Positions 48,498 through 58,532 of a stretch of 64,000 nucleotides of DNA are shown here, piece after piece. Both the position numbers and the translations under genes were made by a program. Source of the stretch: Salinibacterium sp. (lineage in GTDB: Bacteria; Actinomycetota; Actinomycetes; Actinomycetales; Microbacteriaceae); NCBI GenBank assembly GCA_019638845.1, contig JAHBSZ010000002.1:664884-728883 (forward strand), in the 5' to 3' direction. The notes under the pieces are model-generated. The model was not told the DNA's origin. It did no database searches and saw nothing but the letters and a program-made list of their open reading frames with translations. Within the stretch, counting starts at the first letter, position 1. The number at the start of each line of letters is the position of its first letter.

Positions 48498-49127
48498 TCA
48501 AACGCGGGCTCGATAGACGCGTGTGATCGTGAACGAAATGGGAAGCGCCGCCGCCCACGTGATCTCGGCCGCGGTGGCCCCGGCGAGCGCCGCGATCGGA
48601 ATCGACAGGAGGAAGATGCCGGGGATCGGGAACGATTGCACGAGCACGTATCGAAAGACATCAACCGGTACGTCGGGGTCGATGAGGTGTGAGTGCCAGG
48701 CGTAGATCCACATCGCACTCAGAAGGAATCCGATGAGGCAGATCGAAGCCGCATAGATATACACACTGAGTTGCACGTCTCCGTAGCGGCCCAGCACAGC
48801 GGTTGAGAAGGGAACTGATGCCACAGCGAGCAACATAAACAGATTGAGTCGAAGCAGCGCCTGCGAGTATCTGACGATGACGCGGAACTTTCTGTGGTGT
48901 GACATCCACACCGCGCCGATCACCGCAAAGCTCAGGACGAACGAGAGATATTCCGGGCCGAGTTCCGCGAGTGCCGACGCTAGATCCTCGGCTGCAACGG
49001 TGGGTACGTGCAGCTCAACTACGAGCAGGGTCATCGCGATCGCGAACACTGCGTCACTGAAGAAGACAAGGCGTTCGATAGCTGAGCCCTCGGCGATTGT
49101 CCTGACGTAGCGCTGATAGGTGGTCAT
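48498..49127 (-). CDS. TMEM175-family (DUF1211) potassium channel protein
   Basis: About 209 residues with six membrane helices. The first helix has the family signature IERLVFFSDAVFAIAMTLLVVEL, matching RxxxFSD. Bacterial TMEM175 proteins form tetrameric, weakly selective K+ channels. Two ATGs are possible (49163 and 49127); the second matches homologues better. Neither has a clear ribosome site. Confidence 0.87.
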   Translation of the reverse strand: MTTYQRYVRTIAEGSAIERLVFFSDAVFAIAMTLLVVELHVPTVAAEDLASALAELGPEYLSFVLSFAVIGAVWMSHHRKFRVIVRYSQALLRLNLFMLLAVASVPFSTAVLGRYGDVQLSVYIYAASICLIGFLLSAMWIYAWHSHLIDPDVPVDVFRYVLVQSFPIPGIFLLSIPIAALAGATAAEITWAAALPISFTITRVYRARV

Positions 49128-49204
49128 GCACACGATGCTGCCAAACGCGCTCGCGATGGTCATCGGCGCGCAGGTGGATCAGATCAGTCCACCCGCGGGT
49201 GGAG

Positions 49205-51979: not shown

Positions 51980-52783
51980 TCATCCGGTAATCGCAGGGAT
52001 TATCGCGCCCGAGAACACCTGCCACGCGAGCGCTGTCTTCGCGATCAAACTCAGGGTGATGTAGGTGCGCTCCCCCTGCAGATAGCTCTTCCACTTTCCG
52101 ACTTGCTTGTACTGCAACCACTGGTTGATGGCGAAGGTGTTGAAGAACACGAAGAGGGAAATGACGATCCCCACGACGAAGGCGGGCGCTGCGACGTCGC
52201 TCGCGCTCCCGGGGCGGAGGAAATAGATGAGGATGAGAATCCACGGAACGATACCCACCATCGAGCCGAAGATGAACGGCAACAGCTTGCCGGTTCCCGG
52301 CTGCTCGTACTTCTCCTGCAATGCGCCAAAGAGAATCATTGCGGCGTTGACGGCGAACACCGCGAAGAGCGCACCGATGTCGGTTACCCCGTTGATCGCC
52401 AAGATCAGCCAGATCATGATCGACGAGCTGAGTGAGTACTCAACCCAGCGGAAGTAGTTGTGGTTGTGCTGGAGTCCGTTCTTGTATCGTCCGAAGAACC
52501 AGGGGCTCGAGATGAGGAAATGGAAGAGAGCGCTCAGCGCGAGGAAGGCGACCACACCCACGCCGATATTCACTTCGAACAGGGTTACCCGCTCCGGCGG
52601 TACGGGAACTCCGGGAGGACCGGCCAGATAGTCGGCGGTAACCGCAAACAGCACCTGCGTGCTCAGCATCGTGAGAACGACTGCGAATCCGATGGCCTGC
52701 AACAGATGCAAACTGCCGGCAACGACGTTGTAGATTCGCAAGCGATCAATCTGCTGGTCGTTTGTGTAGCCGTTCTTGACCAT
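51980..52783 (-). CDS. heliorhodopsin
   Basis: 267 residues, seven membrane helices. Clear heliorhodopsin features: HLLQ with His26, SALFHFL with His88, counterion Glu115 in FRWVEYSLSSSIMIWLI, NAAMILFGALQEKYEQP, FFNTFAINQWLQYKQVGKW, and Schiff-base Lys249 in SLIAKTALAWQVFSGA. Heliorhodopsins bind retinal, have their N terminus inside, and show no clear pumping; their physiological role is debated. The ATG has AAGGAG upstream. No retinal or carotenoid synthesis genes, nor another rhodopsin, are in the window. Confidence 0.97.
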   Translation of the reverse strand: MVKNGYTNDQQIDRLRIYNVVAGSLHLLQAIGFAVVLTMLSTQVLFAVTADYLAGPPGVPVPPERVTLFEVNIGVGVVAFLALSALFHFLISSPWFFGRYKNGLQHNHNYFRWVEYSLSSSIMIWLILAINGVTDIGALFAVFAVNAAMILFGALQEKYEQPGTGKLLPFIFGSMVGIVPWILILIYFLRPGSASDVAAPAFVVGIVISLFVFFNTFAINQWLQYKQVGKWKSYLQGERTYITLSLIAKTALAWQVFSGAIIPAITG

Positions 52784-52837
52784 GGCGAACTCCTTTGTTC
52801 AGCGGTTTTTCGACGCTACCACCGCTGCCCAGACGAC

Positions 52838-52869
52838 GAGCCCCCGGCCCGAAGCCGGGCCGAGGGCTC
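52838..52869 (-). terminator. strong hairpin between the metallothionein-like gene and heliorhodopsin
   Basis: Arms of 13 bp (52838-52850 and 52857-52869) pair with one wobble position around a GAAGCC loop. It should separate the cmtR/peptide transcript from the heliorhodopsin gene. No T-run follows. Confidence 0.55.
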
Positions 52870-52879
52870 TAGAAGGCCG

Positions 52880-52945
52880 TTAGCAGCAGACGCACCCTTC
52901 GGCGCAGTCCGTCGTGCAACAGCTAGTGTCACAACACTCTGTCAT
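52880..52945 (-). CDS. 21-residue, eight-cysteine metallothionein-like peptide
   Basis: A 22-codon ORF (ATG at 52945, TAA at 52880) with Cys at residues 4, 5, 9, 10, 14, 18, 20 and 21: two CC pairs, a C-x3-C, and a terminal CxCC. It starts MTECCDTSCC and ends GCVCC. The ribosome site GGAGAGGAGG, about 5 nt upstream, is the best in the window. It lies 36 bp after the CmtR-type metal sensor on the same strand and a hairpin follows, so it is very likely translated and metal-controlled. It probably binds Cd, Pb, Zn or Cu by thiolates. No known family was recognised; it is shorter than described bacterial metallothioneins. Confidence 0.75.
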   Translation of the reverse strand: MTECCDTSCCTTDCAEGCVCC

Positions 52946-52981
52946 GTTCGCCTCCTCTCCGTCCCGTTGTTGGCGGGCGGT

Positions 52982-53332
52982 CTACGCGGGATCACAGCAT
53001 CCCGACACCTCACACGAGGCATCCCCACAGGGCAACCCCTCGTCGACGGCAAGCACAATGTTGACCAGCCCGCCCAGCGCCTGCGCGAGATGCGGGTCGG
53101 CGATCTCATACCGGGTGCGTCGACCCTCGGGCTCCGCGATGATCAGTCCGCAGCCGCGCAGGCACGCGAGATGGTTGGACACGTTGGTACGCGTGAGGCC
53201 TAGATCCTGAGCGAGTTGCGCGGGGTAGCCGGGATGGTCGAGGAGGCTGAGCAAGATTCGGGAGCGCGTGGCATCCGCCATAGCGCGACCCAGCCTGTTC
53301 ATGACTTCGAGCCGGGTTGCAATGGTCAGCAT
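52982..53332 (-). CDS. cmtR: CmtR-type metal-sensing ArsR/SmtB repressor
   Basis: 116 residues. The HTH reads RLGRAMADATRSRILLSLLDHPGYPAQLAQDLGLTRTNVSNHLACLRGCGLIIAEPEGRRTRYEIAD, close to mycobacterial CmtR. Its metal ligands map onto the Cys pair in ACLRGC and onto the Cys-rich tail, here PCGDASCEVSGCCDP, which has more cysteines than the mycobacterial protein. CmtR releases DNA on Cd(II) or Pb(II). A TATAGT box 6 nt from the ATG gives a leaderless transcript that continues into the Cys-rich peptide. Confidence 0.9.
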   Translation of the reverse strand: MLTIATRLEVMNRLGRAMADATRSRILLSLLDHPGYPAQLAQDLGLTRTNVSNHLACLRGCGLIIAEPEGRRTRYEIADPHLAQALGGLVNIVLAVDEGLPCGDASCEVSGCCDPA

Positions 53333-53338
53333 GCAATG

Positions 53339-53344
53339 ACTATA
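53339..53344 (-). promoter_or_regulatory. -10 box of the cmtR/peptide unit
   Basis: TATAGT on the minus strand, 6 nt before the cmtR ATG; the message is probably leaderless. Flanking AATCG and ATTGC halves form a loose dyad that may be the CmtR site. Confidence 0.5.
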
Positions 53345-53377
53345 CAGCGATTACTGACCCATGATCGGATTCGGCAG

Positions 53378-53890
53378 TCAACTCCCCTGTTCGTCTCGTT
53401 GGCGTGCATCCCATCGCTCGAAGACCGCAGCGATCTCTTCCTCCATGAACGCGTAGAGCGCGGACAGCCGAATGAGTCGCGCACGCGCATCGCTGGACTC
53501 CGGCAGGAGCTCCGCCCCGCGCGCCGCGAGTCCGCCGAAAACAGTGAGCTCGGCAAGCTTGCTGCGAAACGACGCCTCGAACATGTTGTCAACCAGTCGA
53601 TAGCTATCTCGGCTTGCCTTGGGCCTTCGGGAGCGAGTCAATAGCCCGTACTGCTCGAGCTGGCGCAGGGCGACGCTGAGGCTGCTCTTCGCGACGCCAA
53701 GTCTGGTCTTGAGCTCCTCGGCGTCCGCCGGCTCGTCGGAAACAAGGAGCACCCCAATGATGCGCGCGGCGGTGCGGTTGAGCCCTAGGCGCTCGTAGTG
53801 GAAATGTCTACTCCGCTTGCTATTGCGATCACCGGAGCGAATTCCGGCATCGGTCTTCGCGCGACGACGCGCCTTGCGGCGGCCGGTCAC
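53378..53890 (-). CDS. MarR/GbsR-like winged-helix regulator with unclear start
   Basis: The recognisable part (from HFHYERLGLNRTAARIIGVLLVSDEPADAEELKTRLGVAKSSLSVALRQLEQYGLL, beginning near 53800) is a GbsR-like winged helix, followed by about 75 helical residues. No usual start codon is found close upstream; the only in-frame one is GTG 53890, which would make the gene overlap the divergent dehydrogenase by about 87 bp. Either the start is unusual or the 5' end has been rearranged. Confidence 0.65.
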   Translation of the reverse strand: MTGRRKARRRAKTDAGIRSGDRNSKRSRHFHYERLGLNRTAARIIGVLLVSDEPADAEELKTRLGVAKSSLSVALRQLEQYGLLTRSRRPKASRDSYRLVDNMFEASFRSKLAELTVFGGLAARGAELLPESSDARARLIRLSALYAFMEEEIAAVFERWDARQRDEQGS

Positions 53891-54688: not shown

Positions 54689-55675
54689 ATGTCAACCGTC
54701 CTGTCGACTCGCGCCCTAGCTCTTCCGATGCTCGTGGTCTCTGCGATGCTCACTGCCGGATGCACGGCTGCCGCGGCCCCGGATGCCACACCCACCTCAG
54801 ACCCAACGCCTGCTGCCGTCGCGGCTTCCCCTGCGCCCGCCGACATCCCCACTCACTGGTCGGCGGTTGTTGATCTAGCCGCAATTCCCCTCGGTGACGA
54901 CGCCGTGTCATCTGCGCCGGCGACCGACTTCATCTTCTCGTGCAAGACGAACTTCAGCGGCCGAGGACCGGTTCACACCGGGCCTTGGATTGACTACGAG
55001 AACGACACGTGGAACTCGACCACGAAGGTTGTCGTCACGGGAAACATCACCTGGCCCACCGCGACGTATGTGGAATCCGTTGAGGGGGAGCAACGAGTGC
55101 TCACCTCACAGGACGTGCCCGTTGATGACCCGACCGGTACATTTCCGATTGCCGCGGATGACCCCGCTTTTGCGTTCGACAGAAATCCCAACTCGATTGG
55201 TGACCATGCTGTAGAACTCCGAATGCCGCTCAATCCCACCACGGCAGCGGTACCAAGCTGTGTGGCGATGGGCGCGATCGGAATGATCACAAACGGCGTC
55301 TTCATCTACAACGCATTGGATGGCTCGGGCGGCGATGCCGCGGCACACGAGGCCCAAGACCTGTGCAACGGGCATCCCGATGGGGCTGACGACTACCACT
55401 ACCACGACATCCCCTCGTGCATCCTCGACGTGCTCGCACCAACCGGGTCAACCCTCGTGGGGTACGCCCTCGACGGCTACGGCATCTACGTCGAGCGCGA
55501 CTCTCTCGGCAACCTGCCCACAAACGCCGACCTCGACGAGTGTCACGGACGCACAAGCACGGTGCTCTTCAATGGAATCGAGCAAGAGATGTACCACTAC
55601 AGTGCGACGCTCGAGTTTCCCTTCACCGTGGGGTGCTACCGAGGAACGCCTGGTCCAGTCCCCTCGCACGGTTGA
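54689..55675 (+). CDS. YHYH-domain lipoprotein
   Basis: 328 residues. Lipoprotein signal with MLTAGCTA, a Pro/Thr/Ala linker, then the YHYH domain: DDYHYHDIPSC, GYALDGYGIYVERD, DECHGRTS and MYHYSATLEFPFTVGCYRG. The histidine-rich motif suggests metal binding outside the membrane, but the role is not established. TAGATT is 6 nt upstream of the ATG, so it is leaderless. It begins a possible metal-handling cluster. Confidence 0.87.
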   Translation: MSTVLSTRALALPMLVVSAMLTAGCTAAAAPDATPTSDPTPAAVAASPAPADIPTHWSAVVDLAAIPLGDDAVSSAPATDFIFSCKTNFSGRGPVHTGPWIDYENDTWNSTTKVVVTGNITWPTATYVESVEGEQRVLTSQDVPVDDPTGTFPIAADDPAFAFDRNPNSIGDHAVELRMPLNPTTAAVPSCVAMGAIGMITNGVFIYNALDGSGGDAAAHEAQDLCNGHPDGADDYHYHDIPSCILDVLAPTGSTLVGYALDGYGIYVERDSLGNLPTNADLDECHGRTSTVLFNGIEQEMYHYSATLEFPFTVGCYRGTPGPVPSHG

Positions 55676-55798
55676 TGGCGCGGCAACTCACGCATCTCCA
55701 CACCGTCTCCACACGGTCTCCCCGTAGGTAACACCGCGGCTATTCACACTGATGGCTGGCTGGGAGCACCAGCCACACGACAGACAACGGAGAACGTG

Positions 55799-56458
55799 AT
55801 GCCCAAGCAACGAAACATCGTCATCGCCGCAGTAGTGGGCGCCCTACTCGCTGGAGCTGGGATCGGGGCGACCGCCGCAACCATTGGTCGCCAATCAGAC
55901 AGCGCGGTTGATATGCCTCAGTTCGATGAGATGCCCGCGGGCATGACGTCCGGAAGCGCGATGAGCGGGATGATGGGAATGTCAGATATGGCTGTGGCGG
56001 ACGAGTTCAGCTTCCTCGCCATGATGATCCCGCATCACGAGGAAGCGATCACGGCAGCCGAGGTCTTGAAAGCCGGTACCGATCGCCCAGAAATGCGCGA
56101 GTTCGCCCAGTCGATCATCGACACTCAGACGCGCGAGGTCGTGCAGATGCGCACCTGGTTGGCCGCTTGGTACCCGGGCCGCGACACCTCTGTCGACTAC
56201 ACGCCGATGATGCGCGACCTTACCGGACTACAGGGCGACGCCCTCGACCGCGCATTCCTCGACGACATGATCCCGCACCACATGGCCGCGGTCATGATGT
56301 CGCAGCAACTTCTGAGTTCGGGGCTTGCCGACCACACTGAGGTGGAGCCGTTCGCGCAAACTATCCGCGACGCTCAGCGCGCCGAGATCATGACAATGCA
56401 CGGCTGGCTGGCCGACTGGTTCGGAGTCTCCGGGATGAGCTCGGGCATGAGTCACTGA
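55799..56458 (+). CDS. DUF305 extracytoplasmic Met/His-rich protein
   Basis: 219 residues. N-terminal signal/anchor helix (IVIAAVVGALLAGAGIGATAATI), a Met-rich segment (MPAGMTSGSAMSGMMGMSDM) and two DUF305 half-repeats with FLAMMIPHHEEAITAAEV and FLDDMIPHHMAAVMMSQQ. DUF305 proteins are regular members of copper-response operons; the paired IPHH motifs and methionines could bind Cu(I). It lies 17 bp upstream of an OmpR-type regulator gene. Confidence 0.88.
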   Translation: MPKQRNIVIAAVVGALLAGAGIGATAATIGRQSDSAVDMPQFDEMPAGMTSGSAMSGMMGMSDMAVADEFSFLAMMIPHHEEAITAAEVLKAGTDRPEMREFAQSIIDTQTREVVQMRTWLAAWYPGRDTSVDYTPMMRDLTGLQGDALDRAFLDDMIPHHMAAVMMSQQLLSSGLADHTEVEPFAQTIRDAQRAEIMTMHGWLADWFGVSGMSSGMSH

Positions 56459-56475
56459 GCGGCTTAGGCTGGAGC

Positions 56476-57165
56476 ATGCCTACGGTGCTGATCGTCGAAG
56501 ATGAGCGCGATATTCGTGAGGTACTCCGCCGCTATCTCGAGCGGTCCGGGCTCTCCGTGCTGACCACGGCGTCGGGGGCCGAGGCGTTACGACTTCTTGC
56601 CTCGGCCGATCTTGTGCTCCTCGATCTCGGGCTACCCGATATCGACGGGACCGAGCTTCTTCGAGAAATCCACCTGCGTGAAAAACTTCCCGTGATTGTG
56701 TTGACTGCCCGCAGCACTACCGAGGATCGCATTCGGGGACTCGAACTTGGCGCAGATGACTATGTGACGAAGCCGTTTAGCCCGCACGAAGTTGTGCTTC
56801 GCGTGCAGGCCGTACTGAACCGTCTGGGCGAAAAGCCCGCCGATGGTGGTGTGGTCACCTATGGACAGGACCGTTTGCGGATTGACGAGACCGCCCACCG
56901 GGTCTGGCTGGACGATAGGCCTCTCGATCTGACGCCGACTGAGTGGGGCTTATTGTCAGCAATAGCGGCCGCTCCCGGACGTGTCTATTCGCGCTACGAG
57001 CTGGTGAATCGAGTGCGCGGATACGAGTATGAAGGCTACGAGCGCACGATTGACTCTCACATCAAGAACCTCCGACGAAAACTCGGGCCAACGGGTGCGG
57101 ATGTCGTCGAGACCGTCCTCGGCGTCGGGTATCGTTTGGGACTTCGCCGGGATGAATCATCGTGA
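56476..57165 (+). CDS. OmpR-family response regulator (copper-type candidate)
   Basis: 229 residues. Receiver with phospho-acceptor Asp50 (ADLVLLDLGLPDIDG) and Lys in YVTKPFSPHEVV; winged helix LDLTPTEWGLLSAIAAAPGRVYSRYELVNRV...TIDSHIKNLRRKLGPTGADVVETVLGVGYRLG. It overlaps its kinase gene by 4 bp. The neighbours and the kinase's Met-rich sensor loop point to copper or silver sensing. Confidence 0.92.
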   Translation: MPTVLIVEDERDIREVLRRYLERSGLSVLTTASGAEALRLLASADLVLLDLGLPDIDGTELLREIHLREKLPVIVLTARSTTEDRIRGLELGADDYVTKPFSPHEVVLRVQAVLNRLGEKPADGGVVTYGQDRLRIDETAHRVWLDDRPLDLTPTEWGLLSAIAAAPGRVYSRYELVNRVRGYEYEGYERTIDSHIKNLRRKLGPTGADVVETVLGVGYRLGLRRDESS

Positions 57166-58532
57166 GCACCACCCGACCCCGTAGCAACGCTCCCGGATTG
57201 GGGTCGCTTGGGACGCGACTGCTCCTCGCGTTCGCTTTAGTCGCTGTCTCTTCTGTACTCGTACTGACCGGTGCCGCGCTCATAGGAGTCGATCGGGGGG
57301 TGCAAGCGGGGCAACAAGCCGATCACCAACAGGTCGCGGATGCCACGGCTGCCGCGGCGGCCGCGGCTTACGAATCCGCGGGCGGGTGGGCGGGCGCCGA
57401 CCTCACTCGAGCAATGGGCGCCGGCGATGCCGCTTCGGCACGCGTCGTCATTCTCGACGCCACAGGCGCGACCGTCGCATCCACGGGCCCCGGCATGGGG
57501 TCGGGTGGAATGGGAATGGGGATGAATTCCGAGGCCGTCGTGGTGCCCGTCGTGGTCAACGACACTCAGGTCGGTTCGGTCAGAGTTGCGTTCCCGACGA
57601 TGACGACATCTCGGGTGCTTGATGTTGCTTGGTCGTGGATTATCATCGCCGCGATCGTTGCGCTGGTTGTCGCATTCGCGGTCAGTTGGTTCGTCACCCG
57701 GCTACTCGTTGGCCCCATGCGAACGATGACCGAGGCAGCGCGTTTGTTCACCGCAGGCGACCGCCAATCGCGAGCAACGGTGCGAGCTCCAGGGGAGCTT
57801 TGGGACTTGGCTGTTGCCTTCAACGGGATGGCAGATGAGGTCGTTCGGTCGGACCAGAACCGACGGAACCTGACCGCTGATGTGGCCCACGAACTGCGCA
57901 CCCCCCTCGCTGCGCTTCAAGCGGGTCTGGAAGAACTGCGGGACGGGCTGGCGGAACCGACGACGGAAAGCCTCGCCGGTCTGCATGACCAATCCTTGAG
58001 ACTCGGTCGAGTCGTAGCCGACCTCGCGGAACTCTCGGCGGTAGAAACGGCTGGCCCCGCCCTGCACGTCGCGCTGGTCGACCTCGCACACGTTGCCGTC
58101 GGCGAGTTGTCGCTGCACGAGCCGCACCTGCGCGCCGCCGGGTTGAAAACTGTCGTGAACATTGCCGGTCCGATAATTGTGCGCGCCGACTCCGACCGCC
58201 TCCACCAGGCAATCGGCAACCTCATCGCAAATGCCATCCGGTACTGCCGCTCAGGCGATACCGTGACCGTCACGCTGACCGCGGAAGTCGACCGAGCAGT
58301 GCTGAGGATTGCAGACAATGGACCGGGTATTCCCCCGGACGAACTGCCCCACATCTTTGAACGGCTGTGGCGGGGACGAGCCGCCCAACGCATCCCCGGA
58401 TCCGGCATTGGTCTAGCTCTCGTACGCGAAATCATCACCAAGCACGGGGGCACCGTCGAAGCCGTGTCGACGCAGGGGGAGGGTACGACATTGACTGTTC
58501 GCCTGCCCATCGCCGGGGTCGACACGGAATAG
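57162..58532 (+). CDS. sensor histidine kinase with Met-rich external loop
   Basis: 456 residues. Membrane helices at about 19-43 and 157-178 enclose an external domain whose segment 112-121 (MGSGGMGMGM) is rich in Met, fitting Cu(I)/Ag(I) sensing. HAMP follows at 179-230, then His243 in DVAHELRTPL, N-box NLIANAIRY near 353, and G1/G2 boxes DNGPGI and GSGIGLAL. It pairs with the preceding OmpR-type regulator. Confidence 0.92.
   Translation: MSTTRPRSNAPGLGSLGTRLLLAFALVAVSSVLVLTGAALIGVDRGVQAGQQADHQQVADATAAAAAAAYESAGGWAGADLTRAMGAGDAASARVVILDATGATVASTGPGMGSGGMGMGMNSEAVVVPVVVNDTQVGSVRVAFPTMTTSRVLDVAWSWIIIAAIVALVVAFAVSWFVTRLLVGPMRTMTEAARLFTAGDRQSRATVRAPGELWDLAVAFNGMADEVVRSDQNRRNLTADVAHELRTPLAALQAGLEELRDGLAEPTTESLAGLHDQSLRLGRVVADLAELSAVETAGPALHVALVDLAHVAVGELSLHEPHLRAAGLKTVVNIAGPIIVRADSDRLHQAIGNLIANAIRYCRSGDTVTVTLTAEVDRAVLRIADNGPGIPPDELPHIFERLWRGRAAQRIPGSGIGLALVREIITKHGGTVEAVSTQGEGTTLTVRLPIAGVDTE

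Follow-up and report, generated by a model that had tools for sequence, protein, structure and literature searches.

Can a peptide of 21 residues, eight of them cysteine, serve as a metallothionein under the control of the sensor gene that precedes it? The question is raised by a locus in a 64-kb stretch of a 2.96-Mb Salinibacterium sp. genome (hereafter the window, to which all coordinates refer; Table 1). A preliminary description of this DNA had claimed a minimal, regulated metallothionein operon, and its central observation, an ORF with eight Cys in 21 residues that starts 36 nt behind a cmtR-like gene, is borne out in the sequence. Our preferred reading, with a probability of roughly 0.77, is a two-gene, self-regulated metal-detoxification unit in which the peptide acts as a metal-induced micro-metallothionein. 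The unit of sensor and peptide is compact enough to be tested whole in one experiment.

Table 1. Features of the cmtR-peptide unit, by position in the window
Feature	Position	Strand	Basis
Candidate CmtR operator/promoter, GGTCAG...CTGTATAGTCA	53337..53359	-	motif comparison
-10-like TATAGT ahead of cmtR	53344-53339	-	sequence reading
cmtR, ArsR/SmtB-family Cd(II)/Pb(II) sensor, 116 aa	52982..53332	-	NCBIfam and solved-structure match
RNA hairpin CCGCCCG-(loop ending ACAA)-CGGGaCGG, directly 5' of the ribosome site	52959..52980	-	15/21 loci
Shine-Dalgarno sequence AGAGGAGG, 5 nt upstream of the peptide ATG	52951..52958	-	sequence reading
Micro-metallothionein-like peptide gene MTECCDTSCCTTDCAEGCVCC, 21 aa, 8 Cys	52880..52945	-	conserved family
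14-bp stem with UUCG loop, 3' of the peptide gene	52838..52869	-	folding

The upstream gene encodes a CmtR-type sensor

The assignment of a cmtR-like gene holds: the 116-aa product scores 164.9 bits against NCBIfam model NF047906 (cut-off 150), its closest solved structure is that of M. tuberculosis Rv1994c (2jsc, E 2e-36), and residues C57, C61 and C102, which we take to be the metal site of CmtR, align with those of the M. tuberculosis protein. Furthermore, C57 and C61 are invariant in a nine-row CmtR alignment. Judged by its sequence, the product is a CmtR. The accessible part of PMC10961391 describes CmtR as a sensor of Cd and Pb, and we infer a repression at this locus that would respond to the same two metals. 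Besides the three site residues, the tail of the protein carries further cysteines, as had been claimed; the tail is not peculiar to this locus, however, since most of 48 CmtR loci have a similar one.

CmtR loci usually include a P-type ATPase or CDF neighbour, as judged by reading the 48 loci, among which L080 and L092 repeat earlier loci and L081 is the same locus as L041. A Pfam test was applied at L031, the second cmtR locus of the present genome, where a P-type ATPase gene lies behind cmtR; this ATPase also has a His/Asp-rich stretch. The present unit shares its sensor and its promoter motif with the transporter-containing units, and differs from them in that the peptide gene replaces the usual transporter gene. 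The peptide is present in one of the 48 loci, namely L081, and Cys-bearing frames in L066, L073 and L075 were dismissed as Arg-rich frames with GTG or TTG starts inside transporter genes. CmtR-like genes were also seen on 118 plasmid records and are common on actinobacterial plasmids.

A promoter motif is shared by the two cmtR genes

The proposal that cmtR is leaderless fits the sequence, in that TATAGT ends 6 nt upstream of the ATG, so that transcription would start at or beside the A of the start codon. This motif is widespread among CmtR loci. The longer element GGTCAG...CTGTATAGTCA, or a near form of it, precedes most CmtR genes, one loose form of it covering 43 of the 62 distinct upstream regions. 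In the 2.96-Mb genome, CTGTATAGTCA is present at exactly two sites, one upstream of each cmtR, and the reversed control at none. Support for the word "regulated", as a prediction, comes from the two-gene layout and from this promoter motif, which the genome has ahead of its two cmtR genes only. A simple sigma-70 scan found no promoter at cmtR.

Chauhan et al. are said to have described, in 2009, autorepression by CmtR in M. tuberculosis, and by analogy CmtR may bind at 53337-53359 in the window. A perfect or near-perfect dyad, TACAGC-n-GCTGTA, lies over the -10 region upstream of cmtR in a few diverged loci (L041, L019, L078 and L032), and is a cleaner candidate for a CmtR operator than GGTCAG...CTGTATAGTCA.

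The peptide ORF is a conserved gene

In the window, eight starts follow one of four strong Shine-Dalgarno strings at a distance of 3-10 nt, and the peptide start is the sole one with an 8-base match, AGAGGAGG, in agreement with the claim that it has the best ribosome site of the window. The peptide is likewise the only ORF in the window of 15-50 aa with six or more Cys and a Cys content of 25% or higher; no such ORF arose in 64-kb sequences simulated 30 times with a first-order Markov model. A chance ORF is ruled out by simulation and conservation together, and the peptide represents a real gene family.

Members of the peptide family were counted at 21 loci, spread over 19 genomes that all belong to the Microbacteriaceae. 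A same-genus search with CmtR (27 genomes, own included) found four others with the peptide straight behind cmtR. A profile of five peptides matched 16 of the 398 family genomes searched (E of 0.1 or lower), and 14 of these remained after the loci were read: the match in G105 is a chance frame, and that in G058 (L048) is a different Cys peptide, moved to the second type described below. Within two genera the peptide is found in 5 of 13 and 3 of 9 genomes, the first of these genera adding a new genome (L094). Such a sparse distribution (14 of 398 family genomes, and one of the 48 CmtR loci) counts against the reading as a metallothionein unit. Nine loci are identical to named sequences, eight of them from Microbacteriaceae or Rhodoglobus, Leifsonia and Naasia and one from Actinomycetota, with lineages checked for two of the nine. 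No convincing relative outside the family came from sampling 396 genomes at order level and 296 at class level, some of them family members; the samples returned the own match together with seven weak matches that lacked the motif on reading.

Several other candidates were rejected. L046, L061, L062, L063 and L095-L098 are partial, lack the full set of CC pairs or lie inside other frames; in particular, L062 covers 20 of the 21 positions, has no CC pair and lies within a 453-residue frame. L051 was dropped on a partial match and a long frame. A cassette carried by plasmids was sought by tblastn with both peptide types in 72,556 plasmid records and gave no match, which is weak evidence because the BLAST low-complexity filter was on. 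For a phage cassette, viral contigs supplied 45 candidate stretches, and not one was confirmed as the peptide.

The members follow the pattern M-x-x-C-C-[DEN]-x-[SD]-C-C-x3-C-x3-C-x-C-C. Exceptions are C4S in L004, a 20-residue form in L049, a trailing residue in L042 and L043, and one additional residue between C10 and C14 in L019; the first two indicate that not every thiol is needed. The Cys spacing is conserved in alignment A3, whose L042 row is off by one codon with the Cys columns unaffected, and across 19 loci 150 of 152 cells in the Cys columns are kept. The Cys codons alternate between TGC and TGT at five of the eight positions. The pN/pS ratio is 0.277 over 171 pairs (19 of 21 loci; L019 and L094 left out), indicating purifying selection on the peptide gene. 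The composition is that of a metallothionein, with Cys at 8 of 21 positions, CC and CxC motifs, and no Phe, Tyr, Trp or His in 20 rows. None of 20 members matches any Pfam or NCBIfam model at E up to 10, a search in which HMMER filters may miss so short a protein. The sole solved-structure match, 8j3q (E 1.7), was set aside as chance.

The purifying selection bears on whether the ORF could be a remnant in decay, functionless and derived from the N-terminal end of a P-type ATPase under CmtR control. At the second cmtR, the ATPase that follows (L031:1851-3341, plus strand) begins MSKECCGPDE, and several genus relatives begin M/V-S-E-ECCG at the same place. However, the likeness spans about six residues, so that the ATPase N-terminus is at most an origin, and the selection, the peptide's own ribosome site and its hairpins argue against decay; we consider a remnant highly improbable.

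Residues other than cysteine are conserved too, specifically Asp6, Ser8, Ala15, Asp/Glu16 and Gly17. This conservation speaks against a cysteine-responsive attenuator, in which translating the Cys-codon ORF would matter and its peptide would not, an explanation that deserves serious weight because such ORFs are known in mycobacteria. As far as the accessible text of PMC9031893 and PMC9094748 goes, which relays Canestrari et al. 2020, leaderless polycysteine short ORFs of mycobacteria regulate downstream genes in this manner, and they share with the present case a short Cys-rich ORF in an actinobacterial operon. The three CC pairs of the peptide and the hairpin behind its gene would also suit an attenuator. 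In contrast to the mycobacterial ORFs, which are leaderless and lie ahead of the genes that they regulate, the present ORF is Shine-Dalgarno-led, lies behind cmtR and is conserved as protein; a same-strand downstream gene does exist (heliorhodopsin), but the following gene is not conserved between loci. An attenuator is therefore very unlikely, and the metallothionein reading is retained below.

The peptide gene also occurs away from cmtR

Conservation beside cmtR was tested in related genomes, and the proposal withstood the test: CmtR lies directly upstream in 17 of the 21 peptide loci. The distance from its last matched residue to the peptide is 19-50 nt in 14 of these and 91-177 nt in three; in L036 the CmtR match spans two frames. 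At L037, L038, L047 and L094 the peptide has no adjacent CmtR, and the label "minimal operon" is thus too narrow. L037, the second copy of Naasia lichenicola, lies directly behind a CDF efflux gene, which is itself preceded by a diverged CmtR-like gene that scores below the cut-off. At L038 the gene ahead of the peptide is arsenate-reductase-like (below cut-offs) and an ArsR gene lies divergently, while at L094 it follows a PAP2 gene, with a CDF-like frame about 1 kb upstream (by reading). The 1.5-kb flanks of L047 contain no recognised metal gene.

The 3' neighbours of the unit vary. On the same strand lie heliorhodopsin here and an amine-oxidase-like gene in L052, and on the other strand a sigma factor gene in L053 and a TetR gene in L055; at the remaining named loci the 3' genes were guessed by codon-position G+C, and three of seven such frames scanned belong to a Pfam family. 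The heliorhodopsin gene of the window (51980-52783, minus strand; NF038020, 343 bits) has AAAGGAG before its ATG and lies directly 3' of the unit.

On a tree of 61 CmtR proteins, 17 rows were labelled, namely 16 whose gene is immediately followed by the peptide gene and L037, with L036 omitted. The peptide-linked rows cluster on this tree, with 6 changes compared with a shuffled mean of 15.1 and none of 500 shuffles as low, on a tree that is poorly resolved, gives L037 a very long branch and contains near-copies that favour clustering. The rows do not form one clade. Clustering without a single clade is in line with inheritance as a unit and some transfer.

The same contexts are relevant to two further readings, both compatible with the metallothionein unit. 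The peptide might be a carrier or signalling peptide that, instead of storing metal, delivers it either to an efflux pump or to CmtR, in which case it would reset the sensor; its gene adjoins the sensor gene, the Naasia lichenicola copy adjoins the CDF gene, and the CmtR tail is itself Cys-rich. However, a folded docking domain is improbable in 21 residues and the peptide is found at four loci that lack an adjacent CmtR, and we regard a carrier role as unlikely. Alternatively, the peptide might trap As/Sb(III) instead of Cd/Pb, with CmtR as a borrowed regulator. In favour of this, besides L038, genes upstream of the cmtR of L060 resemble arsenate reductase and, weakly, ArsO, and L045 is followed by a flavoprotein with weak likeness to ArsO (all below cut-offs); a flavoprotein further upstream at L054 resembles that of L060 by reading.

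Distinct Cys peptides of 24-27 residues also lie beside arsR-type genes in L048 and L129. In L048 (1465-1548, minus strand), MHDCCDPVACPADCAEHRTGCCVTACC is encoded with an arsenate-reductase-like gene on one side and, on the other, a divergent gene of the ArsR family (NF033788, 96.2 bits, cut-off 55). Its one clear relative, from a search of 259 family genomes in which nine matched rows besides L048 were read, is MHECCDPVDCPPDCGTHRPDGPCC in L129 (G044), which starts at minus-strand base 1501 beside arsR-like and aquaporin-like frames (by reading). Both contain M-H-[DE]-CCDPV, and they begin M-x-[DE]-C-C-D as the CmtR-linked type does, a likeness of a few letters only; this second type may be an arsenic-linked counterpart of the CmtR-linked peptide. 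Against an As/Sb trap at the present locus, most peptide loci lie behind CmtR, and the window, as far as it was read and in part scanned, shows no recognisable ars gene beside the unit. We judge such a trap to be quite unlikely here, and Cd and Pb remain the metals of the preferred reading.

Hairpins flank the peptide gene

A hairpin precedes the ribosome site in 15 of the 21 loci and is missing at six. Its loop measures 7-8 nt and ends in ACAA in 14 loci (not L005); its 5' arm reads CCnCCCG (TCnCCCG in two), and the pairing 3' arm begins CGG or TGG. One stem pair varies (A-U, G-C or U-A) and the remaining pairs are nearly invariant; with a small covariation term overall, structural support is modest. 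In 396 family genomes, covariance model R1 had 11 strong matches (E < 1e-12), each directly before the peptide; since all 11 belong to the training set of the model, they show only that no others equally strong were found in these genomes. The sole independent strong match is L094, which lies outside the training set and scores 57.7 bits. At L037 and L094 the hairpin is present without an adjacent cmtR, indicating that it travels with the peptide gene. Possible roles are mRNA stability, an open ribosome site or regulation.

Twelve weaker family-wide R1 matches, none with the ACAACGG loop end, are likely chance; among them, L114 and L117 have a G+C-rich stem ahead of a gene. The hairpin as a general regulator was rejected, further matches in the own genome being weak, and Rfam gave a sub-threshold match only at the hairpins. 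In hairpin folding, L007 and L036 came out weak owing to a misplaced cut, and L036 keeps a weak stem.

The closing hairpin is as strong as had been claimed, at -38.8 kcal/mol over a 63-nt stretch (z -3.8), but it has no T run and a simple terminator scan of 52700-53500 was empty. Folding covered 8 of the 21 loci, and all seven relatives folded have a stem of different sequence at the same place (z -2.0 to -6.1). The hairpin is the likely end of the transcript.

A broader reading, which we offer tentatively and consider doubtful, is that the 20-27-residue micro-metallothioneins of Microbacteriaceae constitute a mobile cassette (5' hairpin, ribosome site, thiol peptide, 3' hairpin) under CmtR, CDF or ArsR control, with the ACAA hairpin as a peptide-specific post-transcriptional element, possibly responsive to metal or thiol. 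Were it true, the peptide would be the first member of a class of micro-metallothioneins that ribosomes make.

Proposed mechanism and relation to known metallothioneins

On the basis of its composition, its metal-gene context and published Cys-peptide chemistry, the peptide is very likely a micro-metallothionein, its metal binding and expression being predicted from sequence. In the part of PMC8028610 available, two-Cys peptides of CC and CXnC type bind metals in the order Ni<Zn<Pb<Cd, with stability added by Asp or His, a preference that fits the metals sensed by CmtR. A 21-residue peptide may be prone to rapid degradation in the cytosol, which counts against the metallothionein reading, as do the four loci without an adjacent CmtR, the members with a lost Cys or a shorter chain, the lack of a T run in the 3' hairpin and the failure of the peptide-linked CmtR rows to form one clade.

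The course of events that we infer takes in CmtR binding and induction, a single transcript, translation level, stoichiometry and metal choice. Metal-free CmtR would sit on its own promoter, overlapping the -10 box, and would be released when Cd(II) or Pb(II) occupies its cysteines. A single transcript would carry cmtR and the peptide gene and end at the 3' hairpin, and the peptide's own hairpin and strong ribosome site would yield more peptide than sensor. The eight thiolates, flanked by Asp/Glu, could wrap two or three soft metal ions, so that the peptide would buffer cytosolic metal while the P-type ATPase encoded behind the second cmtR exports it. Metal binding by the peptide, if it occurs, would bring the smallest size of genetically encoded metallothioneins down to about 20 residues, near the enzyme-made phytochelatins, and the peptide, as a metal trap, would be among the smallest gene-encoded proteins of that kind; if the reading is true, family libraries overlook a working part of metal resistance.

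The pairing of an ArsR/SmtB sensor with a metallothionein is already known, and the portion seen of PMC8790569 describes repressors of this type that govern bacterial metallothioneins in the SmtB-SmtA divergon and the BxmR-BmtA operon. Like these cyanobacterial systems, the present unit has an ArsR/SmtB-family sensor beside a metallothionein(-like) gene. Unlike them, it has CmtR as sensor, with a Cys57/61/102 site, and a peptide of 21 residues without His or aromatics and without a Pfam or NCBIfam match. Bacterial metallothioneins with a GATA-type zinc-finger fold have about 50 residues or more, and MymT of M. tuberculosis has 53. The fold is that given in the available text of PMC10612145 for the bacterial metallothioneins studied there, and copper detoxification is the function given for MymT in that of PMC7387436. 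MymT is an actinobacterial metallothionein, like the present candidate, and by description is set apart from it by its much greater length and its copper function.

The fungal copper metallothioneins of Neurospora and Agaricus, with 26 residues and 7 Cys, were once called the shortest, according to the excerpts seen of PMC4755600; the present peptide is shorter. Both are extremely short and Cys-rich, with a single cluster expected, whereas the fungal pattern is CXC-based and copper-type and the present peptide has CC pairs and CxCC, contains Asp/Glu, is bacterial and lies behind a Cd/Pb sensor. Among the matches listed in the open-licence literature on metallothioneins or small ORFs, as far as their accessible text goes, no such peptide appears, although it may be in print elsewhere.

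Other genes near the unit

On the plus strand, 1.4 kb from cmtR, 54689-58529 encodes a YHYH-domain protein, a DUF305/CopM-type protein (91.1, cut-off 90) and a response-regulator-like/histidine kinase pair, and is a possible copper-response cluster. On the minus strand, 48501-49163 is a gene for a TMEM175-type potassium channel (Pfam E 5e-27), a family best known from animal lysosomes.
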